From the NCBI GenBank assembly GCA_020882975.1, contig JAHRFD010000005.1:177271-241270 (forward strand): a stretch of 64,000 nucleotides of DNA, in the 5' to 3' direction. The notes below the pieces were generated by a model. The model searched no databases and was not told the DNA's origin. It was given only the letters and a program-made list of their open reading frames with translations. The DNA comes from Microcoleus sp. EPA2 (GTDB taxonomy: Bacteria; Cyanobacteriota; Cyanobacteriia; Cyanobacteriales; Microcoleaceae). Every line of letters begins with the position of its first letter. Position 1 is the first letter of the stretch. The position numbers were made by a program, and so were the translations under genes. Below are positions 14,461-31,598 of the stretch, in pieces.

Positions 14461-14569
14461 AGCTGAAACCTAGGGATATTAAGGCAAAAAAGTCTTAAAA
14501 ATCTCCGTATCTTTAGACCGGGGACTGTCAATTCTGTAATAATTGGTTAAAGCACAGTTTCCTTGAAAA

Positions 14570-17500
14570 ATGCTGACACCTGCCACAGCCCTGACGCCAG
14601 CCGAACTAACATCCGCGATCGTCCTCAATCCGCTGATGGTTGCACCGGATATCACAGTGATGGAAGCGATCGCCCAGATGAGCGGCGTCCGTACCATTTG
14701 CTCAACCTCTAAAACCGCCGATAGCCAACTTGACGAGCTCCATGTAGAGGCGAGATCGAGCTGCGTCTTAATTGTCCAAGATCGTCAGTTGCTGGGAATT
14801 CTCACAGAACGAGATATTGTGCGCCTCAGTACCCAAAAACGTTCCTTAGATAGCGTTCCGATCCGTGAGGCAATGACATCTGGGGTGGTCACTATCGGCG
14901 TATCTGCCTTCACCGATTTATTTTTGGCGCTGAATCTGCTTCAGCAATATCAGATTCGCCACTTGCCAGTGCTCGACGACCAAAATCGAGTGGTGGGAAT
15001 GTTGACCCACGAAAGTTTGCGACAAACATCGCGCCCCGTAGATTTGTTACGATTGCGCCTGGTAGTAGAAGTGATGACCTCTGAAGTGATTTGCGCCAAT
15101 CCTGATGTTTCAATGATGAACATCGCCGAATTGATGGCCCAAAATCGAGTCAGTTCGGTGATGATTGTCGAAGAACAGATAGGAAGCGATCGCCAAAAAC
15201 AGCAAATTCCCATCGGGATTGTGACTGAGCGCGACATCGTACAATTTCAGGCTTTAAATCTAAACTTAGAAACCTGTCTGGCAAAATCTGTGATGAGCAC
15301 CCCGATTTTTGCGGTGAGTTCAGAAGATTCTCTGTGGACTGTGCAGCAGATCATGGAACAACGGTTAGTCCGCAGATTGGCGGTTACTGGCAAAGCAGGT
15401 GAATTGTTGGGAATTATAACTCAGACGAGTATTTTGCAGGCGCTCAACCCGATAGAAGTATATAAATTAGCAGAAATTTTAGAAAAAAAGGTGTTACGAC
15501 TAGAAGCAGAAAAAGTAGCACTGCTGGAAAATCGGAATATTGAACTAGAGCAGCAAGTGGAGAATCGCACCGCTACCCTGAAGGCAGAATCAGAGCAAAA
15601 ACAACTGATTGCTACCATCGCTTCCCAGATTCGAGCCTCCCTAGATTTAACAGAAATCCTCAATACCACAGTAACCGAAGTGCGATCGCTCTTAAATTGC
15701 GATCGGGCTGATATCTGGCAGTTTCAAGCAGATGCTAGCGTGATTGTCGTTGTAGAATCCGTCGCAGATAAGCAAATAGCAAATCAAAGCAAATATATTC
15801 ACGACAATTGTTTGGATTGGCGGGGAAAATGGCGCACCGGAGTGATTCGAGTAGTAGACGATATCTACACGGCCCCAATCAGCGATTGCCACCGTCAACT
15901 ATTAGAAGATTTGGAAATTAGAGCCAAAATTTTAGTACCCATTTTCCAAGCAGAAACCCTCTGGGGCTTGCTTTGTGTCGCCGAAAGCCGGACCCCCCGC
16001 CACTGGCAGACAACAGAAATTACTCTCCTGCAACAGTTGGCTACACAACTAGAAATTGCCATTCAACAGGGAACGGCTTACCAACAGGTACAAAGCGAGT
16101 TGGCAGAAAGACAACGGGTGGAGGCCCATTTGCGAGAAAGCGAAAAACGTTTTGCGGCTTTGGCGCAATCTGCTCCCGTGGGGATTTTCCGCACGGATAC
16201 TAGCGGTAATTGCTTGTTTGTCAACGATCGCTGGTGTGAAATTGCTGGACTTACATCCGATGAAGCATTGGGTAAGGGTTGGATTCAAGGCTTGTATCCA
16301 GAGGATCGGGACAGGATTAGCGCCGAGTGGTATCAATCCGCCCAAGAACATCGCCCTTTTAAGTTAGAGTATCGCTTTGGGCGATCGGATGGTACTTTCA
16401 GTTGGGTGTTTGGGCAAGCATCGGCAGAAAGAGACGAAGACGGGCAGATTGTGGGTTATATCGGCACAATTACTGATATTAGCGATCGCAAACGGGCGGA
16501 AGAAGCACTGTCCCAACTCAATCAAGAATTAGAACAAAGGGTAGAACAACGGACGCTAGAAGTACATCGCAGTGAATCTCGCCTACAGGAAGCTCAACAC
16601 ATTGCTCGTCTTGGCCATTGGGAAATTGATTTTGCCGAGTCCAAGATTACTGGTTCTCCTGAGATTTTCGAGATTTTGGGATTGGAGATTCATCATCAGG
16701 AACTTACTTTTGAGCAACTCAGACAGCATTTCCATCCCTCAGACTGGGCCTATCATCGTAAAACCATCAAAGGAGTTATTCAACTAGGTGGTAAACACTA
16801 CGAAATCGACCAGCAAATTATCCGCTCTGATGGCTCCCTAGGTTGGATTTTTGCTAAGGGACAAACGGTTTACAATGCTGAGGGTCAGCTTGTCCGATTG
16901 TTTGGCATTGTGATGGATATTAGCGATCGCAAACTGGCAGAAACTGAGTTAGCCAAGAGTGAGGAAAAATTTCGCTGCTTGGTGGAAGGGATTGATGATT
17001 TGATTTGGTCTTGCGATCGAGAGGGTAAATTAACTTACTTGTCACCACAATTCAAAATACTCTTTGGTTGGGAACCAGAAGCATGGATTGGTCAATCTTT
17101 TAGTCTGCTGGTTCATCCAGACGATCGCGATTGGGTTGTAGCTGATGCTCAGCGGATGGTTGTCACTTCTGAAAAGTTGCAGGCTCAGGAATTCCGACAT
17201 CTGCACCAGGATGGGGGTTATATTTGGGTACTGTGCAACGCCACACCGCTCAAAAATGCTGAAGGTATGGTGATTCAATTTCAGGGAATTTTACGGGATA
17301 TTAGCGATCGCAAATTAGCTGAAGAACAGTTGCGCCAACAGAAGGAAACACTTCAAACTATTTTCGATCGCATTCCCCTCATGATTGGTTTGTTTTCAGC
17401 CACTGGGGAAACTGTGATGATTAACCCGGAAATGGAGCGGCTAATTGGTTGGCACCAGGAAGAATACAACCAAATTGATGTTCTAGCATCCTGCTATCCC

Positions 17501-20449
17501 AATGTTGATGATTATCGCAAGGTAGTCGCTCACATGATTCGGGCTGATTCTAGTTGGCAAGATTTTGAAACTCAGGTGCGCGACGGGCGAAAGTTGATTA
17601 CTAGCTGGTCTCAAATTCGTTTGTCTAACGGTTCTAGCATTGGTCTGGGACAGGATATTACCGAGCGCTTCTTAGCAGAAGAAGCTTTGCGCGAATCCAA
17701 GCAATTTTTGCAAACAGTTCTCAATACTTTTCCCCTGGGAGTATTTTGGAAGAATCGAGAATTTGTTTTTTTAGGTTGCAATCTATATTTTTCCCAGGTG
17801 GGTGGTTTAGCGTCTCCAGAGGAAATTTTAGGCAAGACTGATGAGGATTTTGACTGGGGACTAAGGGAAGCAGTGTTTCACCGCACTGATGATGCAGAAG
17901 TCATGGAATCAGGTGTAGCTCAACTGGGAATTATCAAGACAATGCTTCAGGCTGACGGTTCGACAATTTGGCTAGAAATTAATAAGATTCCTCTGCGAAA
18001 CATCAAGGGCGAAATAGTCGGATTACTTGGTACTTTTCAGGATATTACCCATCGCAAATTAGCAGAAATTCGGTTGGAACAACAAGCAGAACAGGAACGC
18101 ATCCTCACCTTCATCACTCAGCGGATACGGGCTTCTCTGAATCTCAAAGAGATTCTGAATACAGCAGTTGCAGAAGTGCGCCAGATTCTGAAGGTAGACA
18201 GAGTTTTGATCTATCGTGTCTATCCCAGTGGTACGGGGGCGGCGATTGCGGAATCCGTTGCACCCCATTGGCTGAAACTTCTGAATATAAATTTCCCAGA
18301 AGAGATTTTCCCTAAAGAAAATTATCAGCGATACTTAGATGGCAGAATTTTTGCTTTGAGCGATCGGGAAACGGGGTCTATTTTGCCTTGTTTAGTAGAT
18401 TTTTTAAGACAAATCAAAGTCAGGGCAAAACTGGTACTACCCATTGTGGATAAACAGGAACTTTGGGGATTATTAATCGCTCATCAGTGCGAGGATTCTC
18501 GTGACTGGCAAAACTGGGAAATTGATTTGATGAAACAACTTTCCAACCAATTATCCATCGCTATTCAACAATCTAATTTGTATCAACAATTGCAATTAGA
18601 GCTAAAAGAAAGACAAGCCAAAGATTTGGTGATTCACAGACAAGTGAAAATGGAATCTTTGCTGAGGGAAATAACTCAACGTATCCGTGATTCCCTGGAT
18701 TTACAAACTATTTTTGCCAGGGCTACGGAGGATACTCGTCATTTAATTGATGCCGATCGAGTGGGCATTTTTCAATTTGCTTCCACTTCTAACTTTAATG
18801 AAGGTGAGTTTGTGGCGGAATCTGTGGTAGCAGGATTTGATTCTGTGATGGCGACTAAAATTCACGATCATTGCTTCGGCGAACAGTACGCTGTTTACTA
18901 TCACCAGGGTAGAATTCAGAAAGTCAGTGACATTTATGATTCTGGACTGACAGAATGTCACATCAATATTTTGGCACAATTCCAGGTGCGGGCGAATCTG
19001 GCAGTGCCATTATTAGATGGATCGAATTTGTGGGGATTGTTGTGCATCCATCAATGTTCTAGACCCCGCTATTGGAGAGAGTCGGAGATTAATTTAGTTA
19101 AGCAAATTGCCAACCAATTGGCGATCGGCATTCAGCAGGCAAATCTTTTTGACCAGTTGCAAACGGAGTTACAGGAACGGCAACAAGCAGAAACAAAACT
19201 TACTGAAATTAATCAACAGTTGGCTATTTCTAATCAAGAACTTGCCCGCGCTACTCGTCTCAAGGATGAATTTCTGGCGAACATGAGCCATGAATTGCGA
19301 ACTCCCCTAAACGCTATTTTGGGGATGACAGAGGCTTTGCAGGATGAGATTTTTGGTGCGATTAACGAGCGACAAATACGAGCTTTGCAAACTGTTGAGC
19401 ATAGTGGGAATCATCTGTTGTCCTTAATCAATGATATTCTCGATCTTGCCAAAATAGAATCGGGACAGGTAGAATTAAATTGTAGTCCCACAGCCGTTGA
19501 TAGTTTGTGTCAGTCTAGTTTGACTTTGGTGAAACAGCAAGCTTTACAAAAAAGGATTCAACTTCAGGTAAAAATTCCCGCTAACCTCCCAGAAATAGTG
19601 GTGGATGAACGTCGGATTAGACAAGTTTTGATTAACTTGCTCAATAATGCGATTAAGTTTACTCCTGAAGGTGGGAGTGTGATTTTGGAGGTGACAATCG
19701 AACCAAGCGAAATATTACCAACACAGGCAAATTATCCAACTACAGCAAGTTCTATTCGGTTTGCAGTGAGGGATACAGGGATCGGTATCACAGCGGAAAA
19801 TATTCAGAAGTTGTTTCAGCCTTTTGTGCAAATCGATAGTGCATTAAATCGTCAGTATATGGGTACTGGTTTGGGCTTGTCTCTAGTGAAGCGGATGGTA
19901 TCTATGCACGGGGGAACAGTTTTGGTGACGAGTGAGGTTGGTGTGGGTAGTTGTTTTAGTTTCGATATCCCCGCAGGCAATTTGCCCCTGCTGGTTTCTG
20001 AGTCGGGGGATGCAAAAAGGCCTAATTTGGAAGATAATTTGAGGGAAAAGGTTGCAGTAACAACTTCGCCTTTGCTATTGTTGGTGGATGATAATCCAGC
20101 GAATGTTAATACAATTTCTGGCTACTTAAAAGCTAAGGGATATCAGATGTTGGTGGCGAGAAATATTGCCGAGGCGATCGCCCTCACTAAATCATCGATT
20201 CCTGACTTAATGATGATGGATATTCAGATGCCGGGAATGGATGCTGTGGATGCGATTGGGCAAATCCGCAGCGATCGCCAATTTGCGAATATTCCGATTA
20301 TTGTCTTGACTACATTGGCGATGGCGCGCGATGGGGAACGATGTCTACAAGCTGGGGCGAATCACTATTTGACTAAGCCTGTAAAATTAAAGCAATTAGT
20401 TAGCACCATTCAGGATCTATTAGCATCATCTCTAAAATACCAAATTTAA
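14570..20449 (+). CDS. Giant hybrid histidine kinase: 4x CBS, 3x GAF (cyanobacteriochrome-like), 5x PAS, HK, REC
   Basis: 1959 residues, no transmembrane helix. Order: two CBS pairs (about 15-290), coiled coil, GAF1 (350-505), five PAS/PAC units (520-1160, most ending in SDRK), GAF2 (1173-1333), GAF3 (1363-1522), HisKA with His1574 in NMSHELRTPLN, HATPase (N box NLLNNAIKFTPEGG), REC with Asp1884. GAF3 carries D-H-C-F (Cys1435) and C-H (Cys1463-His1464), the paired-Cys pattern of DXCF-type cyanobacteriochromes. GAF1 has the variant D-N-C-L (Cys414) and C-H (440-441). GAF2 lacks both the first Cys and the His. CBS domains suggest adenine-nucleotide sensing. First gene of the 14570-30243 cluster, followed after 7 bases by its paralogue. 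Photochemistry is inferred from motifs. Confidence 0.93.
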   Translation: MLTPATALTPAELTSAIVLNPLMVAPDITVMEAIAQMSGVRTICSTSKTADSQLDELHVEARSSCVLIVQDRQLLGILTERDIVRLSTQKRSLDSVPIREAMTSGVVTIGVSAFTDLFLALNLLQQYQIRHLPVLDDQNRVVGMLTHESLRQTSRPVDLLRLRLVVEVMTSEVICANPDVSMMNIAELMAQNRVSSVMIVEEQIGSDRQKQQIPIGIVTERDIVQFQALNLNLETCLAKSVMSTPIFAVSSEDSLWTVQQIMEQRLVRRLAVTGKAGELLGIITQTSILQALNPIEVYKLAEILEKKVLRLEAEKVALLENRNIELEQQVENRTATLKAESEQKQLIATIASQIRASLDLTEILNTTVTEVRSLLNCDRADIWQFQADASVIVVVESVADKQIANQSKYIHDNCLDWRGKWRTGVIRVVDDIYTAPISDCHRQLLEDLEIRAKILVPIFQAETLWGLLCVAESRTPRHWQTTEITLLQQLATQLEIAIQQGTAYQQVQSELAERQRVEAHLRESEKRFAALAQSAPVGIFRTDTSGNCLFVNDRWCEIAGLTSDEALGKGWIQGLYPEDRDRISAEWYQSAQEHRPFKLEYRFGRSDGTFSWVFGQASAERDEDGQIVGYIGTITDISDRKRAEEALSQLNQELEQRVEQRTLEVHRSESRLQEAQHIARLGHWEIDFAESKITGSPEIFEILGLEIHHQELTFEQLRQHFHPSDWAYHRKTIKGVIQLGGKHYEIDQQIIRSDGSLGWIFAKGQTVYNAEGQLVRLFGIVMDISDRKLAETELAKSEEKFRCLVEGIDDLIWSCDREGKLTYLSPQFKILFGWEPEAWIGQSFSLLVHPDDRDWVVADAQRMVVTSEKLQAQEFRHLHQDGGYIWVLCNATPLKNAEGMVIQFQGILRDISDRKLAEEQLRQQKETLQTIFDRIPLMIGLFSATGETVMINPEMERLIGWHQEEYNQIDVLASCYPNVDDYRKVVAHMIRADSSWQDFETQVRDGRKLITSWSQIRLSNGSSIGLGQDITERFLAEEALRESKQFLQTVLNTFPLGVFWKNREFVFLGCNLYFSQVGGLASPEEILGKTDEDFDWGLREAVFHRTDDAEVMESGVAQLGIIKTMLQADGSTIWLEINKIPLRNIKGEIVGLLGTFQDITHRKLAEIRLEQQAEQERILTFITQRIRASLNLKEILNTAVAEVRQILKVDRVLIYRVYPSGTGAAIAESVAPHWLKLLNINFPEEIFPKENYQRYLDGRIFALSDRETGSILPCLVDFLRQIKVRAKLVLPIVDKQELWGLLIAHQCEDSRDWQNWEIDLMKQLSNQLSIAIQQSNLYQQLQLELKERQAKDLVIHRQVKMESLLREITQRIRDSLDLQTIFARATEDTRHLIDADRVGIFQFASTSNFNEGEFVAESVVAGFDSVMATKIHDHCFGEQYAVYYHQGRIQKVSDIYDSGLTECHINILAQFQVRANLAVPLLDGSNLWGLLCIHQCSRPRYWRESEINLVKQIANQLAIGIQQANLFDQLQTELQERQQAETKLTEINQQLAISNQELARATRLKDEFLANMSHELRTPLNAILGMTEALQDEIFGAINERQIRALQTVEHSGNHLLSLINDILDLAKIESGQVELNCSPTAVDSLCQSSLTLVKQQALQKRIQLQVKIPANLPEIVVDERRIRQVLINLLNNAIKFTPEGGSVILEVTIEPSEILPTQANYPTTASSIRFAVRDTGIGITAENIQKLFQPFVQIDSALNRQYMGTGLGLSLVKRMVSMHGGTVLVTSEVGVGSCFSFDIPAGNLPLLVSESGDAKRPNLEDNLREKVAVTTSPLLLLVDDNPANVNTISGYLKAKGYQMLVARNIAEAIALTKSSIPDLMMMDIQMPGMDAVDAIGQIRSDRQFANIPIIVLTTLAMARDGERCLQAGANHYLTKPVKLKQLVSTIQDLLASSLKYQI

Positions 20450-20456
20450 AATCGAT

Positions 20457-23400
20457 ATGACATCTACCACCGCCCTGACACAAACTGAATTAAAATCGGC
20501 CATCATCCGCAATCCACTGACAGTTTCACCCGATACGACGGTAATGGAGGCGATCGCCAAAATGAGCGGTGTTCGTACCCTTTGTTCGGCTTCCCAAAGC
20601 GCGGATATCCAAGGAGATGAATTGTCTATAGAAGCGCGATCGAGTTGCGTTTTGGTTGTGGAAGGTCGGCAGTTGTTGGGAATTGTCACAGAACGGGATA
20701 TTGTTCGACTCACTGCGAAAAATTGCTGTTTAGAACGTATGAATATTACCACAGTGATGGCATCTGAGGTGGTGACTATGCGCGAATCTGTGTTCACAGA
20801 TTTGTTTGTGGCGGTAAATCTGGTTCAGCAACATCATATTCGCCATTTGCCGATTCTAGACGACGAAAATCAATTGGTGGGACTTGTGACTCACGAGAGT
20901 TTGCGGAAAGCGTCGCGCCCCATTGACTTGTTGCGAATACGGCTGGTTTCTGAAGTGATGGCGACGGAAATAATTTGTGCTAGCGCGGATGTTTCTATGC
21001 TCACTATCGCTCAATTGATGGCCCAAAATCGAGTTAGTTCCGTCATGATTGTGGAAGCACAACACACAGGAGGCGATCGCCCACAACAGCAAATCCCGAT
21101 TGGCATTGTCACTGAGCGCGATCTCGTCCAATTTCAAGCCTTAAATTTAAACCTGGAAACTTGTCAAGCCCACTCGGTGATGAGTACGCCGATTTTTACG
21201 GTGAAGCCTGATGATTCTCTGTGGGATGTGCAGCAGATTATGGAACAGCGGTTAGTCCGCAGATTGGCGGTGACAGGGGTGTTTGGTGAACTTTTGGGTA
21301 TTGTCACTCAGACAAGTATTTTGCAAGTTTTGAATCCCCTGGAACTTTATAAATTAGCTGAGGTTTTAGATAATAAGGTATCGAAATTGGAGGCGGACCA
21401 AATAGCATTGTTGGAGAATCGCACCGTCGAATTAGAGCGCCAAGTAGAGGAGCGAACGGCTGCACTCGCCACAACGGTGAGGCGGGAAAAACTAATTGTC
21501 ACCATCGCTTCGCAGATTCGAGCTTCTTTAGATTTGCCGGAGATTTTGGATACGGCGGTGAAGGCGGTACGAGAGTTTTTGCAGTGCGATCGACTTTTAA
21601 TCTATCGGTTTGAACCGGATTGGACTGGTGTGGTAGTGGCAGAGTCGGTGGAGGCTATTTGGCGCACTTCTATTAACGATCGCATAAATGATTCTTGTTT
21701 TAAAGAAAGGGCTGAAGTTATTTATCAAAGCGGAAAAACTATTGCTGTTAATAATATTTATACGGCTGGCTATACACCATGTCATGTGCAATTGTTAGAG
21801 CAATATCAGGTAAAATCTAATCTAGTAGTACCAATTTTGGTGTCGGAAAAGTTGTGGGGATTGTTAATCGGGCATCACTGCGAAAGCTATCGTGCTTGGT
21901 ATCCTAACGATCTGAGTTTGTTGGAGGAGATAGCTGTGCAATTGGCGATCGCCATTCAGCAAGCAGAACTGCACACTCAGCTACAAGAAGAACTAGCAGA
22001 AAGACGACAGACGGAATTGCTGTTACGCAAGAGTCAAGAAAATTACCGTTTGATTACTGAAACTATTGAGGATGTATTTTGGTTAGCAGATCCGCAACTT
22101 GGGAGAGCAATTTATATTAGTTCGGGTTATGAAAAAATCTGGGGGCGTGCTGCTGAACCGCTTTATCAAAACTTTCTGGGATGGCTAGAAGCTCTCCACC
22201 CTGACGATCGCGAGTATGTCAGCAGGGAGTTTATGCAATTATTATCCACAAACCATTATGAGGTGGAGTACCGGATTGTGCGGCCTGATGGTTCTGTGCG
22301 CTGGATTCGCGATCGGGGCTTTACGATTAAGGATGATTCGGGAACGGTGGTGCAGATTTCTGGGGTAGCAGAGGATATTAGCGATCGCAAAGCTAATGAG
22401 ACGTTTCTGCGACAGTATGAGGGGATTGTTTCTACGACACCCGATCGCATTGCTTTAGTCGATCGTAATTATATTTATCGGCTGGTTAACGGCACTTATT
22501 TAGAGCGTAGTGGCAAGTCTTGGGAGGAAATAGTCGGACATTCGGTGGCTGATTTGCACGGCGAAACCATGTTCCAAACGATTATGAAGCCCTATCTCGA
22601 TCGATGTCTTGGGGGAGAAATTCAACAATATGAAGCATGGGTTTATGAGTTTAATCACCCGGAACCCCGGTTTATCAGTGTCAGCTACGGGCCCTATAGA
22701 TCCCCAGACGGCACGATTTCTGGCGTGACAGTCAACGCCCGCGATTTGACCGAACTCAAACTGGCTGAAGAATCTTTGCGGGAAAAAGAGCAGTTTTTAC
22801 GCAGCATTTATGAAGGCATAGAACAGGCAGTTTTTACTGTGGATGTTTTGCCGGATGGAGAATTTTATTTTCTCGAATTCAACCCTGCCTGCGAGCGTTT
22901 AACTCAGACATTAACTGCTGATGTGCGAGGCAAAAAGCCCTTGCCAGAAATCCGAAAACGCTATGCCGATTGCGTTCAGTCTGGATTTCCTATTTGCTAT
23001 GAAGAATGTCTGAATTTTAAGGGGAAAACTACTTGGTGGATTACGACGTTGACTCCAATTCGAGATAATAGCGATCGCATTTATCGGATTGTGGGTACGA
23101 GTATGAATATTACCGATCGCAAGCAGGCAGAAGCAGACCTAGTGCAACTGAACCAATCTCTAGAAGCGAGGGTGGCAGAGCGCACTGTGGAACTCCAAGA
23201 ACGGGAAGCTCAATTGTATGATTTATTTGACAATGCTACGGATTTGATTCAAAGCGTTTCCCCCCTAGGGCAAATTTTGTTTGTGAATTCTGCCTGGAAA
23301 GAAACTCTGGGCTATACCGATGCCGATCTACAGGAGTTGTTTTTGTTTGAAATCATCCATCCAGACAGTTTGGTTAAGTGCCAAGTCATGATGGAACAGC

Positions 23401-25571
23401 TATTTGATGGCGTACCTTGCACCAGTATTGAACTTAAGTTTTTGACGAAAGATCGTAGGACAATTGTAGTTGAAGGAAATGTCAATTGTCGGTTGGAAAA
23501 TGGTAAACCCATCGCGATGCGGGGAATTTTTCGGAATATTACGGAACGCAAACAAGCTGAAGCCAGACTTAAGGATAGTCTCAAGGAATTATCCGACTTT
23601 AAATATGCCTTGGATGAGTCAGCAATTGTGGCAATTACTGATGCTGAGGGCAAAATTACCTATGTTAACGATCGATTCTGCGAGATTTTTCAATATAGTC
23701 TAGGGGAGTTGATCGGGAATACCTATCGGCTGTTGAATGCTGGCCATCATTCTCCTGAATTTTTTGAGGAAATGTGGCGAACTCTACGGAATGGGGAAAT
23801 CTGGCGGGGCGAGATTCTCAACCGGGCAAAGGATGGTAGTTTCTACTGGATTGATACTACGATTGTGCCTTACCTGGATGCGGACGGTAAACCTTTTCAA
23901 TACTTGGCTATCCGCACTGATATTAGCGATCGCAAGCGTGCCCAAGAGCAGTTGTCCAGTTTGTCAGACAGGTTGGAATTGGCGCTGAAGTCGGGTCAAA
24001 TTGGGATTTGGGATTGGGATATTGTCAACGATCGCCTGATCTGGGACGATCGAATGTACGAACTCTATGGCGTCACAGCCTCGGATTTTGGCGGTGCTTA
24101 TCAAGCCTGGGAAGCGGGCATACATCCCGATGATATCCTGGCGACGCGGACTGTGAGCGAGGAATCACGGGCTGGAATCAGAGATTTTGATACGGAATTT
24201 CGCGTGGTGTGGCCCGATGGTACGGTGAAATTTATCAAAGCCTACGCCCTGATTCAGCGCAACTCCCAAGGAGAACCCCAACGGATGATTGGGATTAATT
24301 ATGATATTAGCGATCGCAAGCAAGCAGAAGCCAGACTTACTGAAACCAATCAAAAACTGGCTATTTCTAACCAAGAACTAGCTCGCGCTACTCGTCTCAA
24401 GGATGAATTTTTGGCGAATATGAGCCACGAATTACGCACGCCTCTGAATGCGATTTTGGGAATGACGGAGGCTTTGCAGGAGAACATATTTGGCTCGATT
24501 AACGAGGGACAAATACGGGCTTTGCAAACTATTGAACATAGTGGCACTCATCTTTTATCATTAATCAATGATATCCTCGACCTTGCCAAAATAGAATCGG
24601 GACAAATCGAACTAAATTGTAGTCTGACGGCCATTGATAGTTTGTGTCAGTCCAGTTTAACTTTGGTGAAACAGCAAGCTTTACAAAAAAGGATTCAACT
24701 TCAGGTAAAAATTCCCGATCGCCTCCCCGAATTATTAGTCGATGAACGTCGCATCCGACAAGTTTTGATTAATTTGCTCAATAATGCGATTAAATTTACT
24801 CCCGAAGGTGGCAGCGTGACTTTGGAGGTGACAATCGCACAAACCGCCATGGTCCCCCCACTCCCAAATTCTCCCACTAGATCCAGTTCAATTCGGTTTG
24901 CAGTGAGTGATACAGGGATCGGTATCACAGCGGAAAATATTCAGAAGTTGTTTCAGCCTTTTGTGCAAATTGATAGTGCTCTGAATCGTCAGTACATGGG
25001 TACTGGTTTGGGTTTGTCTCTGGTGAAGCGGATGGTGGAAAAGCATGGGGGAACAGTTTCGGTGACGAGTGAGGTGGGCGTGGGTAGTTGTTTTAGTTTT
25101 GACTTACCGGCTGGCAATTTGCCGATGCTGATTTCTCAATCTCCGATTGAGAAATCAGCACCGATGGAGGGCCAAAAAGAGTCTGAAACATCCCGACTAA
25201 TCCTATTGGCAGAAGATAATGAAGCAAATATCAGTACCATTTCTGGCTATCTGATGGCTAAAGGGTATCGGATTGTGGTGGCGAAAAATGGTGCAGAGGC
25301 GATCGCCGTCACTAAATCATCTCTTCCCGACTTGATTTTGATGGATATCCAAATGCCGGGAATGGATGGTTTTGAGGCGATTAAGCAGATTCGCAGCGAT
25401 CGCCAATGTGCCCATATTCTGATTATCGCCTTGACTGCATTGGCGATGACTGGTGATGGAGAACGATGTCTGGAAGCTGGGGCGAACAACTATCTCACTA
25501 AGCCAGTGAAATTAAAGCAACTAGCAAATGCCATTCATGAATTATTAGCAACTAAAGAGCTTAATCAATGA
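20457..25571 (+). CDS. Giant hybrid histidine kinase: 4x CBS, DXCF-type GAF, 6x PAS, HK, REC
   Basis: 1704 residues and a clear paralogue of the preceding gene. The CBS region (about 15-290) and the HK-REC part are nearly alike, while the PAS array differs. GAF at about 350-505 has N-D-S-C-F (Cys414) and, 28 residues on, P-C-H (Cys442-His443), followed by NLVVPI and LWGLLIGHHC. This matches DXCF cyanobacteriochromes of the TePixJ kind. Six PAS units (526-1285) follow, then HisKA with His1324, HATPase and REC with Asp1630 in MDIQMPGMDG. It starts 7 bases after the previous stop and overlaps the next gene by ATGA, so it is co-transcribed. Predicted blue/green light input into a phosphorelay; CBS domains may add energy-state input. 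Confidence 0.93.
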   Translation: MTSTTALTQTELKSAIIRNPLTVSPDTTVMEAIAKMSGVRTLCSASQSADIQGDELSIEARSSCVLVVEGRQLLGIVTERDIVRLTAKNCCLERMNITTVMASEVVTMRESVFTDLFVAVNLVQQHHIRHLPILDDENQLVGLVTHESLRKASRPIDLLRIRLVSEVMATEIICASADVSMLTIAQLMAQNRVSSVMIVEAQHTGGDRPQQQIPIGIVTERDLVQFQALNLNLETCQAHSVMSTPIFTVKPDDSLWDVQQIMEQRLVRRLAVTGVFGELLGIVTQTSILQVLNPLELYKLAEVLDNKVSKLEADQIALLENRTVELERQVEERTAALATTVRREKLIVTIASQIRASLDLPEILDTAVKAVREFLQCDRLLIYRFEPDWTGVVVAESVEAIWRTSINDRINDSCFKERAEVIYQSGKTIAVNNIYTAGYTPCHVQLLEQYQVKSNLVVPILVSEKLWGLLIGHHCESYRAWYPNDLSLLEEIAVQLAIAIQQAELHTQLQEELAERRQTELLLRKSQENYRLITETIEDVFWLADPQLGRAIYISSGYEKIWGRAAEPLYQNFLGWLEALHPDDREYVSREFMQLLSTNHYEVEYRIVRPDGSVRWIRDRGFTIKDDSGTVVQISGVAEDISDRKANETFLRQYEGIVSTTPDRIALVDRNYIYRLVNGTYLERSGKSWEEIVGHSVADLHGETMFQTIMKPYLDRCLGGEIQQYEAWVYEFNHPEPRFISVSYGPYRSPDGTISGVTVNARDLTELKLAEESLREKEQFLRSIYEGIEQAVFTVDVLPDGEFYFLEFNPACERLTQTLTADVRGKKPLPEIRKRYADCVQSGFPICYEECLNFKGKTTWWITTLTPIRDNSDRIYRIVGTSMNITDRKQAEADLVQLNQSLEARVAERTVELQEREAQLYDLFDNATDLIQSVSPLGQILFVNSAWKETLGYTDADLQELFLFEIIHPDSLVKCQVMMEQLFDGVPCTSIELKFLTKDRRTIVVEGNVNCRLENGKPIAMRGIFRNITERKQAEARLKDSLKELSDFKYALDESAIVAITDAEGKITYVNDRFCEIFQYSLGELIGNTYRLLNAGHHSPEFFEEMWRTLRNGEIWRGEILNRAKDGSFYWIDTTIVPYLDADGKPFQYLAIRTDISDRKRAQEQLSSLSDRLELALKSGQIGIWDWDIVNDRLIWDDRMYELYGVTASDFGGAYQAWEAGIHPDDILATRTVSEESRAGIRDFDTEFRVVWPDGTVKFIKAYALIQRNSQGEPQRMIGINYDISDRKQAEARLTETNQKLAISNQELARATRLKDEFLANMSHELRTPLNAILGMTEALQENIFGSINEGQIRALQTIEHSGTHLLSLINDILDLAKIESGQIELNCSLTAIDSLCQSSLTLVKQQALQKRIQLQVKIPDRLPELLVDERRIRQVLINLLNNAIKFTPEGGSVTLEVTIAQTAMVPPLPNSPTRSSSIRFAVSDTGIGITAENIQKLFQPFVQIDSALNRQYMGTGLGLSLVKRMVEKHGGTVSVTSEVGVGSCFSFDLPAGNLPMLISQSPIEKSAPMEGQKESETSRLILLAEDNEANISTISGYLMAKGYRIVVAKNGAEAIAVTKSSLPDLILMDIQMPGMDGFEAIKQIRSDRQCAHILIIALTALAMTGDGERCLEAGANNYLTKPVKLKQLANAIHELLATKELNQ

Positions 25572-28399
25572 AAAAACTTTATAACTCAGGAATTTCAGTC
25601 GAAGAAACAGTTGACTTGACTAATTGCGATCGCGAACCGATCGAAATTCCTAATGCTATTCAACCCCACGGGATTCTGATAGTATTTTCTCTGCCAGATT
25701 TTACCATCGAACAGGTGAGTGCTAATACAGAATTGCTGCTGGGAATAAGTCCCTATGAACTCTTAGGGAAATCTTGGGAAACCTTGTTAAATCAAGCAGA
25801 TTTAGAAAATATTAAATATTGGATTGAGCGAGATTGTAAAACAGCAATTACGATAAAATTGTTTGTCAAAAAACAACTTAATAAAACTTTATTTAACGCC
25901 ATAATTCATCGGCTAGGAGAGAATTCCGTCATCCTAGAGCTAGAGCCGGGAGATAATACCGATCGGTCAAGTTTTAACGGATTGTTCCAAATAACTAAAG
26001 GCATTCTCAGTCAGATGCAAAAGGCTGCCAACCTCACAGAAATGTGTCAGATAATCACCAAAGAAGTGAGAAAACTGATTGAGTTTGACCGGGTGATGGT
26101 TTATAAGTTTGATGCTAATGGTGCCGGCGAAGTGATTGCCGAAGAAAAACTCGATGAGATGGAATCCTATCTGGGGTTACATTACCCTCAATCTGATATT
26201 CCTCGGCAGGCTAAACGTCTCTATACGATTAATCTATTGCGATTAATCCCCGACATCAATTATCAGCCTGTCGGTATTTTGAGGCTGGATGCAGGGGCGA
26301 TCGCCCAGTCCGGGAAAACGACAGACAATCAACCCCTTGACTTAAGCCTTAGTGTATTACGAAGTGTTTCTCCTATCCATATTGAATATCTCCAAAATAT
26401 GGGTGTGGGAGCTTCCATGTCAATTTCACTAATTGAGGATGGCAAACTCTGGGGTTTAATTGCCTGTCACCATGAAACCGCCCGATTTATTCCCTATGAA
26501 ATTAGAACTATCTGCGAGTTTGTTGCTCAGGTAATGTCTCTGGAATTGGCATCTAAAGAAGCTCAGGAAGATATGGATTACAAAATGTCAGTAAAGTCGG
26601 TACAGTCGCAATTGATTAAAAGTCTTGCCCAGGCTGGGGAGATTACGGAAGAATTGGTAAGAAACGCAGACAATTTATTGGCACTTGTGGGTGCTAGGGG
26701 TGCGGCAATTTGTGCCGAAAGTCAACTGGTGACTGTGGGTGATACACCCCCAGTAGCCGAGTTGCAGGATTTGATCGATTGGTTGGGCGATCGCTTCGAG
26801 CGGGATATTTTTGTTACCGATTCTTTAGCTTCGTTATATCCCCAGGCGACGGAGTTTCAGGATGTGGGTAGTGGTTTACTGGCTCTTTGTATTACTAAAG
26901 TTCAGAGGAATTACGTATTGTGGTTTCGACCTGAGATCTTACAATTGGTTAATTGGGCTGGGAATCCCTATAAACCGAATCAGGTGGAAGCAGATGGGAG
27001 TCTGACGCTGTTTCCTCGGAAATCCTTTGAGCTGTGGCAACAAACTGTTCGCCTTAAGTCGCTTCCTTGGAAACCATGGGAGATTGAGGCCGCGATGGAA
27101 GTCCGAAGTGCGATCGTGGAAATTATTTTGCGAAAAGCTGATGAACTGGCTGCTATTCATCAATCTGAGCTTTATGCCCAGTTGCAGGAAACTAATCAGG
27201 AATTAGCCCGCGCCACCAGGCTCAAAGATGAATTTTTGGCCAATATGAGCCACGAACTCCGTACTCCCCTGAATGCAATTTTGGGGATGACAGAGGCATT
27301 GCAAGAACAGGTTTTTGGCAAGATTAACGAGCAACAATTGCGGGCTTTGCAAACAGTTGAAAACAGTGGCACTCATCTACTGGAATTAATTAACGATATC
27401 CTGGATTTGGCAAAAATTGAAGCGGGACAAATTGAATTAAATTGCAGCCCAGTCACTGTCAGTCAGTTGTGCCAATCTAGTTTGCCGTTTGTGAAACAAC
27501 AAGCTTTGCAAAAACGCATTCAGATTCAGTTACATATTGCACCTAATCTGCCAATTTTGATGGTGGATGAACGGCGGATTCGACAAGTTTTGATCAATTT
27601 GCTCAATAATGCAATTAAGTTTACTCCTGAAAAAGGTAGCGTTAGCTTGGATGTGAGATTAGAACCACCCACACCCCAAGCAACATTGGCGGTAGATCGA
27701 AATATACCCAGTTTAATTCGGTTTGCGGTGATTGATACTGGTATCGGTATTAAACCCGAAAATCTTAAAAAACTTTTTCATCCTTTTGTGCAAATTGACA
27801 GTGCTTTAAACCGTCAATACACGGGGACTGGTTTGGGTCTTTCTCTGGTTAAACAAATAGTGGAAATGCACGGAGGAAATGTGGCTGTCCAGAGTGAATT
27901 AGGTGTTGGTAGTTGTTTTAGTTTCAATTTGCCCTGTGGGGATTTACCCCTTCCTGTATCTCAGCATCTGAGTGCTTCACCCTCGGAACCTATGCCCAGC
28001 GAGACTGTTACACAACTGTCTCCACTAATCCTGTTGGCAGAAGATAATGAAGCTAATATAAGTACGCTTTCTAGTTACTTGGAGGCGAAAGGATATCGGA
28101 TTGTTTTGGCGAACAATGGTTTAGAGGCGATCGCCGCCACTAAGGCCCAAGTTCCTGATTTAATTTTAATGGATGTCCAAATGCCGGAAATGGACGGTCT
28201 TGAGGCAATGAGGCTGATCCGCAGCGATCGCCAATTTGCGCATATTCCGATTATCGCCTTGACGGCATTGGCCATGACGGGCGATCGCGAACGATGTCTA
28301 GAAGCTGGGGCTAGTGATTATCTCACTAAGCCGGTTAAACTCAAGCAATTGGCCAGCACAATTCAACTATTGTTAGAAGCACAGGATAGTAGGAAATGA
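25568..28399 (+). CDS. Bacteriophytochrome-type hybrid histidine kinase (PAS-GAF-PHY-HK-REC)
   Basis: 943 residues. The N-terminus LTNCDREPIEIPNAIQPHGIL places Cys20 exactly where biliverdin-binding bacteriophytochromes have their chromophore Cys. The GAF domain has SDIPRQAKRLYTINLLRLIPDINYQPV and SPIHIEYLQNMGVGASM, with Ile where cyanobacterial Cph1 has its phycocyanobilin Cys, so it belongs to the BphP class. The PHY domain includes the tongue: WFRPE, WAGNPYKP, FPRKSFELW, LPWKPWE. Then HisKA with His562, HATPase, and REC with Asp869. The ATGA overlap with the upstream kinase and with the downstream REC-GGDEF-EAL gene shows tight coupling. Expected to switch between red and far-red states with biliverdin; the covalent link needs proof. 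Confidence 0.93.
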   Translation: MKKLYNSGISVEETVDLTNCDREPIEIPNAIQPHGILIVFSLPDFTIEQVSANTELLLGISPYELLGKSWETLLNQADLENIKYWIERDCKTAITIKLFVKKQLNKTLFNAIIHRLGENSVILELEPGDNTDRSSFNGLFQITKGILSQMQKAANLTEMCQIITKEVRKLIEFDRVMVYKFDANGAGEVIAEEKLDEMESYLGLHYPQSDIPRQAKRLYTINLLRLIPDINYQPVGILRLDAGAIAQSGKTTDNQPLDLSLSVLRSVSPIHIEYLQNMGVGASMSISLIEDGKLWGLIACHHETARFIPYEIRTICEFVAQVMSLELASKEAQEDMDYKMSVKSVQSQLIKSLAQAGEITEELVRNADNLLALVGARGAAICAESQLVTVGDTPPVAELQDLIDWLGDRFERDIFVTDSLASLYPQATEFQDVGSGLLALCITKVQRNYVLWFRPEILQLVNWAGNPYKPNQVEADGSLTLFPRKSFELWQQTVRLKSLPWKPWEIEAAMEVRSAIVEIILRKADELAAIHQSELYAQLQETNQELARATRLKDEFLANMSHELRTPLNAILGMTEALQEQVFGKINEQQLRALQTVENSGTHLLELINDILDLAKIEAGQIELNCSPVTVSQLCQSSLPFVKQQALQKRIQIQLHIAPNLPILMVDERRIRQVLINLLNNAIKFTPEKGSVSLDVRLEPPTPQATLAVDRNIPSLIRFAVIDTGIGIKPENLKKLFHPFVQIDSALNRQYTGTGLGLSLVKQIVEMHGGNVAVQSELGVGSCFSFNLPCGDLPLPVSQHLSASPSEPMPSETVTQLSPLILLAEDNEANISTLSSYLEAKGYRIVLANNGLEAIAATKAQVPDLILMDVQMPEMDGLEAMRLIRSDRQFAHIPIIALTALAMTGDRERCLEAGASDYLTKPVKLKQLASTIQLLLEAQDSRK

Positions 28400-30243
28400 A
28401 TCAACCATCTGTTTTAGTAGTTGACGATGAACCCGATAATTTTGATGTGATTCAAGCGCTGTTGAGCGATCGGGAATATGATTTGTACTATGCTTCTAGC
28501 GGTCAATTTGCGATCGACTCCCTAGACGTATTCCGACCCGATGTGATCTTGATGGATGTGATGATGCCAGATTTGGATGGTATTGAAGTCTGTCAGCGGA
28601 TTAAAGCTTTGCCACAATGGGAGTCGGTTCCGATCATCATAGTCACAGCCTTAAGTGCTAAAGAAGACTTGGCGCGATGTCTCAAGGCTGGTGCTGATGA
28701 TTTTATTAGCAAACCCGTCAGTGGTCTGGAACTGCGCGCCAGAGTCAACTCCATGCTGCGCATTAAACAACACTACGATGACTTGCAAGCTTCTTTGAGG
28801 CGGCAAGCAATCTTAGAAGCTGAAAAACTCTATTTCCTCAAGCATCGCAATACGGAATTGGAACAACAGGTTGCAGAACGAACCACGGAACTTAAGGCAA
28901 AGGCAGAACTGATTATACACAATGCCTTGCACGATCCCTTGACAGATTTGCCAAATCGGACTCTGTTGGTGGAGCGGCTCGAATTAGCGATTAATCGAGC
29001 TATGCGATTGAAAGACTATTTTTATGCTGTCTTGTTTCTCGACCTCGATCGCTTTAAAGTAATCAATGACAGCTTAGGACACTTAGCTGGAGACCTATTA
29101 CTCACGAATATTGCTCAAAACCTCAAAAACTATCTGCGGGAGGCGGATTTAATCGCTCGACTTGGTGGTGATGAATTTGTAATTTTGCTGGAAGATGTGG
29201 CCGGTATTGAAGAAGTTATTCAAATTACTGAGCGGATTCAAAAAGAATTTCAAAACCCCCTCACGATTAATGGCTACGAAATGTTTATCAGTGCTAGTAT
29301 CGGCATTGTTTTAGGGCATAAAAATTACTATCAAGCCTCGGATTTGATTCGAGATGCGGATATTGCCATGTATCGGGCTAAGGCTCAAGGCAGAAATTCT
29401 TACAAAATTTTTGATGCCACCATGCACACTCAAGCTGTCAACAGGCTAACTCTGGAAAACGATCTCCGTAGGGCGATCGAACGAGAAGAGTTTATTGTGT
29501 ACTATCAGCCAATTGTTGACATCAGAGGCGATCGGCTGGTGGGGTTTGAGGCTTTGGTACGTTGGCAACATCCCACTCGTGGTTTCATTTCTCCCCTAGA
29601 CTTTGTTCCTATTGCAGAAGAAACGGGGTTGATTGTACCGCTAGATAGTTGGGTATTGCACACTGCTTGCAAACAATTAGCTCGCTGGCAAAATCAGTTT
29701 CCTAGTCGATTTCCCTTGAAGGTCAGTATTAATCTTTCCGCTCAAGACCTGCGTAAACCTCTGTTGATTCAGGAAATCGACCGTACCATTGCTGCAACCG
29801 GTTTAGATGGCAGTTATATTACTCTGGAAATTACCGAGAGTATGCTGATTGAAAATATCACAAAAACTATAGATTTATTGACCCAATTAAAAGCCCGCCA
29901 AATTCAGATTAGCATAGATGACTTTGGGACGGGATATTCATCGCTAAATTATCTCCATCGCTTGCCTGCGGATAATTTAAAAATCGACCGCTCTTTTGTG
30001 AATCAGATGCAGGAAGGCAACCGTAATTATCAGGTGGTGAGTACGATTATTGCTTTGAGCAATCAACTGGGATTAGCCGTTGTGGCTGAAGGTATAGAAA
30101 CAGGACAACAACTTAAATGGTTGCAGGAACTTGGCTGTGAATTTGGTCAAGGATATTTATTTTCTAAGCCCTTATCAGCTCAAGAAATTGAAATAAAATT
30201 TTTGAATAATCAAGATGAAAACATTTTTAAATTAGCTGGTTAA
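28396..30243 (+). CDS. Response regulator with GGDEF and EAL domains (c-di-GMP turnover)
   Basis: 615 residues. REC at 1-125 with phospho-acceptor Asp54 (LMDVMMPDLDG) and the KPVSG Lys. A coiled coil follows. GGDEF domain at about 170-335 with the intact G-G-D-E-F signature at 257-261. EAL domain at about 350-600 with E385-A-L in VGFEALVRWQHP and downstream DDFGTGYSS, so both catalytic centres look intact. It can both make and degrade c-di-GMP, with the REC domain as switch. It overlaps the bacteriophytochrome gene by 4 bases, making it the likely phospho-partner and output of the photosensory kinases. In cyanobacteria c-di-GMP governs motility versus aggregation. Confidence 0.95.
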   Translation: MNQPSVLVVDDEPDNFDVIQALLSDREYDLYYASSGQFAIDSLDVFRPDVILMDVMMPDLDGIEVCQRIKALPQWESVPIIIVTALSAKEDLARCLKAGADDFISKPVSGLELRARVNSMLRIKQHYDDLQASLRRQAILEAEKLYFLKHRNTELEQQVAERTTELKAKAELIIHNALHDPLTDLPNRTLLVERLELAINRAMRLKDYFYAVLFLDLDRFKVINDSLGHLAGDLLLTNIAQNLKNYLREADLIARLGGDEFVILLEDVAGIEEVIQITERIQKEFQNPLTINGYEMFISASIGIVLGHKNYYQASDLIRDADIAMYRAKAQGRNSYKIFDATMHTQAVNRLTLENDLRRAIEREEFIVYYQPIVDIRGDRLVGFEALVRWQHPTRGFISPLDFVPIAEETGLIVPLDSWVLHTACKQLARWQNQFPSRFPLKVSINLSAQDLRKPLLIQEIDRTIAATGLDGSYITLEITESMLIENITKTIDLLTQLKARQIQISIDDFGTGYSSLNYLHRLPADNLKIDRSFVNQMQEGNRNYQVVSTIIALSNQLGLAVVAEGIETGQQLKWLQELGCEFGQGYLFSKPLSAQEIEIKFLNNQDENIFKLAG

Positions 30244-30300
30244 TCGCAGCTTGAAGATTTAGAGAACTCAACGGAAAAATCGATCCTTATTCAGCAAGCC

Positions 30301-30322
30301 CTAATTAGGTTAACCTAATTAG
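30301..30322. promoter_or_regulatory. 22-bp perfect palindrome upstream of the REC-HK gene (operator candidate)
   Basis: CTAATTAGGTT followed by its exact reverse complement AACCTAATTAG, centred on GTTAAC, 44 bases before the start at 30366. No T-run follows, so it looks more like a dimeric-regulator site than a terminator. The factor is unknown. Confidence 0.6.
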
Positions 30323-30365
30323 CAGTGGCAATTCAGTAATATTCACCCCAAAAGGAGCAGCACCA

Positions 30366-31508
30366 ATGAATCAGCCCTCTATTCTAGTAGTTGATGACGA
30401 ACCCGATAATTTTGATGTGATTGAAGCGCTGTTGAGCGATCGCGGATATGATTTGCACTATGCTTCCAATGGTCAAGTCGCCCTCAACTCCCTGGATGTA
30501 TTCCAGCCGGATGTGATCTTGATGGATGTGATGATGCCAGACTTGGATGGTATGGAAGTCTGTCAGCGGATTAAAGCCCAGCCCCAATGGGAGGGTGTTC
30601 CCATCATCATGGTGACAGCTTTGAGCGCCAAAGAAGACCTGGCTCGATGTATCAAGGCTGGTGCCGATGATTTTATCAGCAAGCCCGTCAGTGGTCTGGA
30701 ACTCCGTGCTAGGGTTCATTCCATGTTGCGACTCAAGCAACAATATGACAAAATCCGCAGTCTTTCCAAAGTCCAAGAAAGTACGATCGACCTATTACAA
30801 AAAAATCTGAATGAATTAAGCGGTAACTTAGCTTCCAGTTTACCTCATGAATTGAACACACCCTTAAACGGTATTTTCGGAGTGATTGGATTGTTGATCG
30901 ACGATCGTGAAGACATGAGTGATGAAGAAATTCATGAACTTTTACTATTAGCTCAACAGTCGGCTCTGAGACTAGATAGGCTGACGAAAAAGTTTTTGAT
31001 CTATATCAAGCTAGAACTGATGACTAGCCAAATGCCTATGGATAAAATTTCGACTAATAATGAAGTCACTTCTACTAAATCAGTCATAGAAAATTGTGCG
31101 AGGGAACAGGCCAAAAAAGTCGATCGCCAAAATGACTTGATTTGCGAGCTAGAAGATATAGATATCCCCGTGTCTGAGGAAAATTTGAAGTGGATGGTAG
31201 ATGAATTGTTAGAAAATGCTTTGAAATTTTCTACACCTTTAACACCGGTGAAGGTAAGTAGTCAATTAATTAAGGGAGCATTTCATCTATCCATATCCGA
31301 TCGCGGCCGGGGAATGACAGAGGAACAGATTTCCAAAATCGGAGCGTTTATGCAATTTGAACGCCGTACCTATGAGCAACAAGGTTTAGGACTAGGATTA
31401 AAAATAGTCAAAAAAATCATAGATATATCCGGGGGACAATTTTATCTTTCCAGTGTATACCATGAAGAGACCACAGCTCATATTAAATTGCCTAGCATTT
31501 CTGAATAG
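30366..31508 (+). CDS. REC-histidine kinase (receiver at N-terminus)
   Basis: 380 residues. The first 130 residues are nearly identical to the receiver of the gene at 28396, starting with MNQPS-(V/I)-LVVDDEPDNFDVI and including Asp54 in LMDVMMPDLDG. HisKA is at about 150-215 with His161 in LPHELNTPLNGI. The HATPase has WMVDELLENALKFSTP and a C-terminal QGLGLGLKIVKKI box. It is preceded by AAAAGGAGCA, a strong ribosome-binding site. A receiver fused in front of a kinase usually receives phosphate from an upstream kinase and adjusts its own output. The gap of 122 bases with a palindrome suggests separate or additional control. Its partner could be any regulator of the cluster. Confidence 0.93.
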   Translation: MNQPSILVVDDEPDNFDVIEALLSDRGYDLHYASNGQVALNSLDVFQPDVILMDVMMPDLDGMEVCQRIKAQPQWEGVPIIMVTALSAKEDLARCIKAGADDFISKPVSGLELRARVHSMLRLKQQYDKIRSLSKVQESTIDLLQKNLNELSGNLASSLPHELNTPLNGIFGVIGLLIDDREDMSDEEIHELLLLAQQSALRLDRLTKKFLIYIKLELMTSQMPMDKISTNNEVTSTKSVIENCAREQAKKVDRQNDLICELEDIDIPVSEENLKWMVDELLENALKFSTPLTPVKVSSQLIKGAFHLSISDRGRGMTEEQISKIGAFMQFERRTYEQQGLGLGLKIVKKIIDISGGQFYLSSVYHEETTAHIKLPSISE

Positions 31509-31598
31509 TTTTGTTTGGTGATGATATAGCAACCGCCAAACATTTAAGTTCTCAACTTTTTTGCTGGGTCCATCTTTTCTACACTAATCTTACAAATT

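Follow-up and report, generated by a model that had tools for sequence, protein, structure and literature searches.

We describe a run of five plus-strand genes in a 64,000-nucleotide stretch of Microcoleus sp. EPA2 (contig JAHRFD010000005.1, positions 177,271 to 241,270; hereafter the window) that probably encodes a two-component circuit in which light colour, and possibly also energy state, would control cyclic di-GMP (c-di-GMP). It comprises three hybrid histidine kinases (P1, P2 and P3), a response regulator with a receiver (REC), a GGDEF and an EAL domain (P4), and a REC-histidine kinase (REC-HK); we hold this overall reading with moderate confidence. The parts are familiar, and this wiring appears to be undescribed: a literature search covering the titles and the start of abstracts among the matches listed, with few subscription papers, found no description of this gene set.

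In the circuit as we picture it, light would enter through P1, with three cyanobacteriochrome (CBCR)-type GAF domains that include an RcaE-type green/red domain and a DXCF domain, through P2, with one DXCF GAF, and through P3, with a biliverdin-type phytochrome; bilin binding and the colours sensed are predictions from homology and motifs. Since the three hybrid kinases have one type of kinase core, they should have common targets, most likely the two matched receivers of P4 and REC-HK. Phosphotransfer to P4 would set c-di-GMP through its GGDEF and EAL domains, with a presumed direction of change and a presumed behaviour downstream (motility, aggregation or cell shape), while REC-HK would pass the signal on to another regulator. 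Light, and perhaps adenylate state via the CBS domains, would set the balance of the three kinases, and the kinase core and receivers would form a fixed interface on which sensors and outputs are exchanged. A bolder proposal, which we advance tentatively and judge a little short of even likelihood, is that the locus is a rewiring platform: the kinase-receiver interface would stay constant, with the core copied between sensors and the receiver made near-identical in two outputs (probably by gene conversion), sensors and outputs would be swapped, and the cell would compute c-di-GMP from as many as five bilin sensors that differ in colour.

A sequence-only reading of the same DNA had described P1-P4 as four plus-strand genes spaced by 7, -4 and -4 bases, and the open reading frame (ORF) list agrees: P1 and P2 are 7 bases apart, P2 and P3 overlap by 4, as do P3 and P4, and all starts are ATG. 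This spacing fits a single transcript. Scans of positions 14300-31700 gave chance results for both promoter-like sequences (33 found, against a shuffle mean of 31.1) and terminator-like ones (14 against 14.1), so that spacing alone suggests co-transcription of P1-P4, or of all five genes. The domains of P1, P2 and P4 listed in Table 1 are those of Pfam, which reads P3 as PAS_2-GAF-PHY-HisKA-HATPase-REC; each named domain in P1-P4 scores above its own cut-off.

The common kinase core is seen in P3 too. Its sensory part matches a phytochrome chain across 515 residues (closest solved chains FiDCB, 9jry, and BphP, 6bap) and carries the motifs of a bacteriophytochrome (BphP), namely DLTNCD with Cys20, SDIP, SPIHI, ACHH and PRKSF, so that the N-terminal Cys and PHY tongue noted earlier are borne out within a PAS-GAF-PHY array. 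No other BphP match in 59 genomes, its own included, is more than 55% identical to this part. The kinase and receiver, in contrast, are like those of the neighbouring CBCR kinases and not those of other BphPs. The P3 kinase is 76% identical to that of P2 and 74% to that of P1, and at best 39% to 35 other BphP rows (from its own and related genomes, with one gene present twice); over the 72 residues that surround the phospho-accepting His, P1 and P2 agree at 66 positions, P1 and P3 at 62, and P2 and P3 at 63. In a reduced histidine kinase (HK) tree, P3 falls near P1 and P2 with weak to moderate support (82), and the circuit-type set of 43 has a support of 90. A single clade of the 21 BphP kinases in the same tree, P3 included, was rejected (approximately unbiased (AU) test, p 0.0067); by this test and the identities, the P3 kinase does not belong with those of other BphPs. 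Because of the kinase identities, the HK tree, and the modest likeness of the sensory part to other BphPs, P3 is, on these comparisons, a phytochrome sensor grafted onto a kinase and a receiver of the type that the circuit itself uses. Among the genomes examined, the whole phytochrome gene is present at this place in the window's genome only. The reduced tree holds 81 of the 146 kinase rows; it omits REC-HKs and second REC-HKs, CBS kinases from outside the circuit, and a number of long branches. Of the 36 ORFs matching PHY, the kinase match was of sufficient length for the HK tree in 22. One gene (L059 and L107) appears twice in the HK trees, and the copies L011 and L013 (of L041 and L097) were kept there and omitted from the REC and GGDEF-EAL trees.

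The locus carries five bilin-type GAFs, one in the P3 phytochrome and four of the CBCR kind, where three had been counted earlier; the RcaE-type GAF2 of P1 had been missed. All four CBCR-type domains are homologous to proven CBCRs and have the canonical Cys. The best solved match is PDB chain 6oap for P1 GAF1 (E 5.1e-41), P1 GAF3 (E 1e-41) and the P2 GAF (E 1.7e-46). With solved relatives this close, the CBCR fold of these domains can be taken as settled. The earlier label of DXCF kinases holds in part, as the strict motif is limited to P1 GAF3 (DHCF) and the P2 GAF (DSCF); GAF1 of P1 reads DNCL at this place and GAF2 has no DXCF motif, with EEIF at that position. The closest solved chains to P1 GAF2 are 8k9o (E 1.4e-47) and RcaE itself (7ckv, E 3.5e-44), which give near-identical alignments. 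Within them FPxE, Cys-Leu and AK are retained, so that kinship with RcaE, a Leu next to the Cys, and both a Glu and a Lys are all in place; we take these to be the RcaE protochromic triad of Glu217, Leu249 and Lys261. P1 GAF2 is, by these marks, an RcaE-type predicted green/red domain.

These motifs bear on the possibility that light is marginal here, with the CBS and PAS domains as the real inputs and the GAFs holding a different ligand or no bilin, so that the locus would report metabolic state. P1 and P2 do carry four CBS domains and several PAS domains, the CBS kinases of some relatives have no GAF match, and in our alignment of 91 GAFs (from the window and its relatives, a few being fragments or outside the circuit) 14 of the 56 domains not labelled GAF2 lack the D-x-C and Cys pair, some of these being fragments or non-circuit. 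Against this, the nearest solved chains are CBCRs, Cys followed by His or Leu is found in 74 of the 91, and the E, C, L, K set of the RcaE type is kept in full in 30 of the 35 GAF2-labelled domains; among the remaining 56, D-x-C and canonical Cys occur together in 42, 37 of them with the adjacent His. We regard a marginal role of light as quite improbable. As a separate observation, four congeners (L076, L077, L079 and L082) encode a kinase some 2750 residues long, split over two ORFs in L076, whose domains include roughly eleven PAS and two RcaE-type GAFs; it adjoins two REC-HKs, with no GGDEF-EAL protein within the stretch.

On the output side, Pfam and motif reading agree with the earlier claim that P4 is a REC-GGDEF-EAL protein with both catalytic motifs intact, and the protein looks capable of both synthesis and breakdown of c-di-GMP. 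Its receiver and that of REC-HK are 87% identical over 128 residues. At the DNA level, codons 1-128 of the two genes are 0.69-0.96 identical in eight 48-base blocks, after which the values drop to 0.33 and 0.29 from codon 129. In the receiver tree both belong to one set of 71 rows (Shimodaira-Hasegawa-like approximate likelihood ratio test, SH-aLRT, 98) made up of 42 REC-HKs, 17 circuit-type REC-GGDEF-EAL proteins, 10 second REC-HKs and 2 others, apart from 24 other REC-GGDEF-EAL or kinase receivers (in two clades) and 11 hybrid receivers. Within its own lineage, the P4 receiver joins those of REC-HK (100/99), and a single clade of the receivers of the window, G017, G026 and G287 is disfavoured (AU p 0.012, in a tree without G432). 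The GGDEF-EAL part sits in a canonical clade and not with the 13 other circuit-type ones (AU p 0.0049); one GGDEF-EAL tree was built without the G056:C62 protein and the other includes it. This placement matters for the view that P4 would serve solely as a phosphodiesterase or as a sensor of c-di-GMP, with a regulatory GGDEF domain. In the other circuit-type clade 9 of 13 proteins read GEDEF, so the cyclase is often altered there while EAL stays; P4, by contrast, lies outside this clade with its GGDEF motif intact, and we consider the loss of the cyclase role rather unlikely.

P4-type genes recur with a CBCR-type hybrid kinase of this kinase type in two distant genomes. In G287, a hybrid kinase with a GAF of the EHCF/CY kind, whose HK is 71% identical to that of P1, lies 373 bases upstream of a P4-type gene; its product, of 612 residues and 71% identical to P4, has a receiver, a linker 62% identical over 50 residues, and a canonical GGDEF-EAL part. 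In G432, from another order, a hybrid kinase (DHCF/CH GAF; HK 72% identical to P1) lies 12 bases upstream of a second full-length P4-type protein, 70% identical to P4. Neither genome has a REC-HK of this family within the stretch. These pairs are the best comparative support for a predicted signal from kinase to P4. They also led us to reject an assembly of P4 in this lineage from its neighbour's receiver and a foreign GGDEF-EAL part: with P4-type proteins in G287 and G432, P4 probably has an old origin, and the likeness of its receiver to that of REC-HK would have come later, most likely by gene conversion. A second graft of the P4 receiver may instead have occurred, as the join of the P4 GGDEF-EAL part to that of G287 has a support of only 92/69.

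More recent change is seen in the closest relatives. The full-length proteins nearest to P4 are those of G017 (98%) and G026 (97%), the next being 57% identical (59 genomes, own included). The DNA of G017 is 95-97% identical over these genes; its P1 is shorter by 127 residues, about one PAS domain, and its P3 has lost about 2.2 kb in frame, leaving 215 residues with the phytochrome N-terminus and the receiver. G026 has fused P2- and P3-type receiver pieces, with P1 on another contig. Given these rearrangements in G017 and G026, the repeated kinase-receiver segments seem to recombine, and the phytochrome would go back at least as far as the ancestor that G000 and G017 share. The four-gene set as a conserved operon is unsupported, as both of these closest P4 kin lack a whole P3. 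The G026 operon is broken (L032:7491-7886 and upstream), with a P2/P3 hybrid receiver remnant followed by unrelated sequence.

As a mark of the system, REC-HK is more widespread than the four-gene run. At E values up to 1e-95, a sample of 388 genomes from the order has it in 42, belonging to 20 of 149 genera (at 1e-80, in 15 of 59 genomes, own included). The stretches around these 42 genes span up to 20 kb (27.5 kb for the window) and many end at contig ends, so that counts are lower bounds: a CBS-domain kinase is present in at least 35 of the 42, an intact REC-GGDEF-EAL gene in at least 15, a second REC-HK in at least 9, and a BphP in at least 2, these last being the window and G241. In G026 and G010 the circuit-type CBS kinase is on another contig and was scored as a miss. 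G241 (L083:15070-17319) has a separate BphP gene of 749 residues, followed by a receiver gene, near its REC-HK genes; phytochrome may have been joined to this circuit independently there. In G313 and G227 (L090:2017-3752 and L091:2514-3746), the REC-GGDEF-EAL gene is in pieces and REC-HK is whole.

Several findings weigh against a light-driven route from the three kinases to P4 and REC-HK. REC-HK is separated from P4 by a 122-base gap, and the P4 receiver and the hybrid-kinase receivers fall in different clades. The G287 GAF reads EHCF, not strict DXCF. In G017 the P2 GAF reads DSYF and the reduced P3 has Ala where the phospho-accepting Asp of its receiver stood; with the Cys changed in one and the other reduced, neither colour seems essential. 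An intact REC-GGDEF-EAL gene is lacking in 27 of the 42 REC-HK stretches (some cut by contig ends), and c-di-GMP is therefore not an obligatory output. P1, P2 and P3 each end in a receiver with its phospho-accepting Asp, and a histidine phosphotransfer (HPt) domain has no match on this contig and 13 matches elsewhere in the genome. This arrangement would suit a closed phosphorelay, in which the kinases signal mainly through their own C-terminal receivers to a distant HPt and on to another regulator, with P4 and REC-HK answering to other kinases. The nearest studied case, CdgK-CdgS of Anabaena PCC 7120, is in part a precedent, as the signal from CdgK goes through an internal receiver and HPt before it reaches CdgS (PMC9927289). 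A closed relay would not, however, lead us to expect a circuit-type kinase near REC-GGDEF-EAL to recur across families and in one other order, nor the CBS-domain kinases around REC-HK; we judge it unlikely and prefer signalling to the two matched receivers, be it direct or by a relay. The multi-colour module of the sequence-only reading, with three kinases feeding one c-di-GMP enzyme, is supported in part: in its sensing architecture and its c-di-GMP output protein, and by the single kinase type of the three kinases and the kinase-P4 pair of two distant genomes. It was incomplete in that it lacked the fifth gene, REC-HK with its twin receiver, the chimeric nature of P3, and the restriction of whole P3 at the locus to this genome among those examined.

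Comparison with known systems places the locus among familiar parts. CdgK is likewise a hybrid kinase of large size, contains PAS and GAF domains, is co-transcribed with the response regulator CdgS, and raises the cyclase activity of CdgS by phosphorylation (PMC9927289). There, however, one kinase acts, with a CHASE domain, an internal HPt and a signal given as not known, and CdgS has a GGDEF output with no twin receiver mentioned in the text consulted (PMC9927289). SesA, SesB and SesC of Thermosynechococcus are CBCRs controlling c-di-GMP, and several such photoreceptors are described as jointly setting c-di-GMP by light colour, as the genes here predict (PMC5871770, PMC8846402). The Ses photoreceptors are themselves cyclases and phosphodiesterases, whereas here histidine kinases would act on a separate GGDEF-EAL response regulator; no single chain at this locus joins a photosensor to GGDEF or EAL. 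CcaS and RcaE have Leu in place of His beside the Cys (PMC9415938), and P1 GAF2 is of this type (PDB 7ckv). It differs in its setting, a hybrid kinase of CBS-PAS-multi-GAF make-up with a c-di-GMP enzyme as neighbour, in place of an RcaE-RcaF-RcaC or CcaS-CcaR system. REC-HK lacks a photosensory domain, unlike PPHK, which we take to be a REC-GAF-HK kinase steered by its receiver, as REC-HK may be. PPHK is the Leptolyngbya JSC-1 kinase of PDB 6oap (PMC11480761), the solved chain that best matches three of the GAFs described here.

It has long been asked how two-component systems can switch inputs and outputs and yet keep specificity. The locus offers a natural case, with a phytochrome sensor on its neighbours' kinase type and two outputs with near-identical receivers, and close relatives that have lost or recombined the phytochrome and show a change in one DXCF Cys. 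Together, the graft, the twin receivers, and the changes in relatives make a rewiring rule, and light-colour two-component control of c-di-GMP in filamentous cyanobacteria, directly testable; they also supply natural chimeras on which optogenetic design could draw.

Table 1. Genes and domains of the putative circuit and an adjoining gene (window positions; aa, amino acids).
Feature	Position	Strand	Description
P1	14570..20449	+	Hybrid histidine kinase, 1959 aa: 4xCBS, GAF1, PAS, GAF2, GAF3, HisKA-HATPase, REC
P1 GAF1	15641..16066	+	CBCR-type; DNCL 15803, canonical Cys in ISDCH 15878
P1 GAF2	18140..18565	+	RcaE-type; FPEE 18293, Cys-Leu (LPCLV 18383), AK
P1 GAF3	18677..19159	+	DXCF-type; DHCF 18866, TECH 18950
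P1 HisKA-HATPase	19262..19975	+	Pfam, motifs, HK tree
P2	20457..25571	+	Hybrid histidine kinase, 1704 aa: 4xCBS, GAF, PAS, HisKA-HATPase, REC
P2 GAF	21531..21956	+	DXCF-type; DSCF 21690, TPCH 21774
P3	25568..28399	+	Bacteriophytochrome hybrid kinase, 943 aa: PAS-GAF-PHY on circuit-type HisKA-HATPase-REC
P3 HisKA-HATPase	27224..27937	+	HK tree, identities
P4	28396..30243	+	REC-GGDEF-EAL, 615 aa; GGDEF 29164, VGFEAL 29539, Asp54
P4 receiver, codons 1-128	28396..28779	+	Near-twin of receiver 30366-30749
REC-HK, fifth member	30366..31508	+	REC-HisKA-HATPase kinase, 380 aa
REC-HK receiver, codons 1-128	30366..30749	+	Near-twin of P4 receiver
dCache-HAMP-PAS-nucleotide cyclase	31599..34130	+	843 aa; possible neighbour, not core

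The nucleotide cyclase gene begins 90 bases after REC-HK and has the same place in G017 and G026; c-di-GMP signalling may here lie next to signalling of the cAMP type. Directly upstream of P1 (10378-14460) are a GAF-containing histidine kinase of 743 residues, whose GAF has no Cys aligned at the bilin place (a gap in the alignment), and an ABC1-type kinase; in G026 both still accompany P1 on its other contig.

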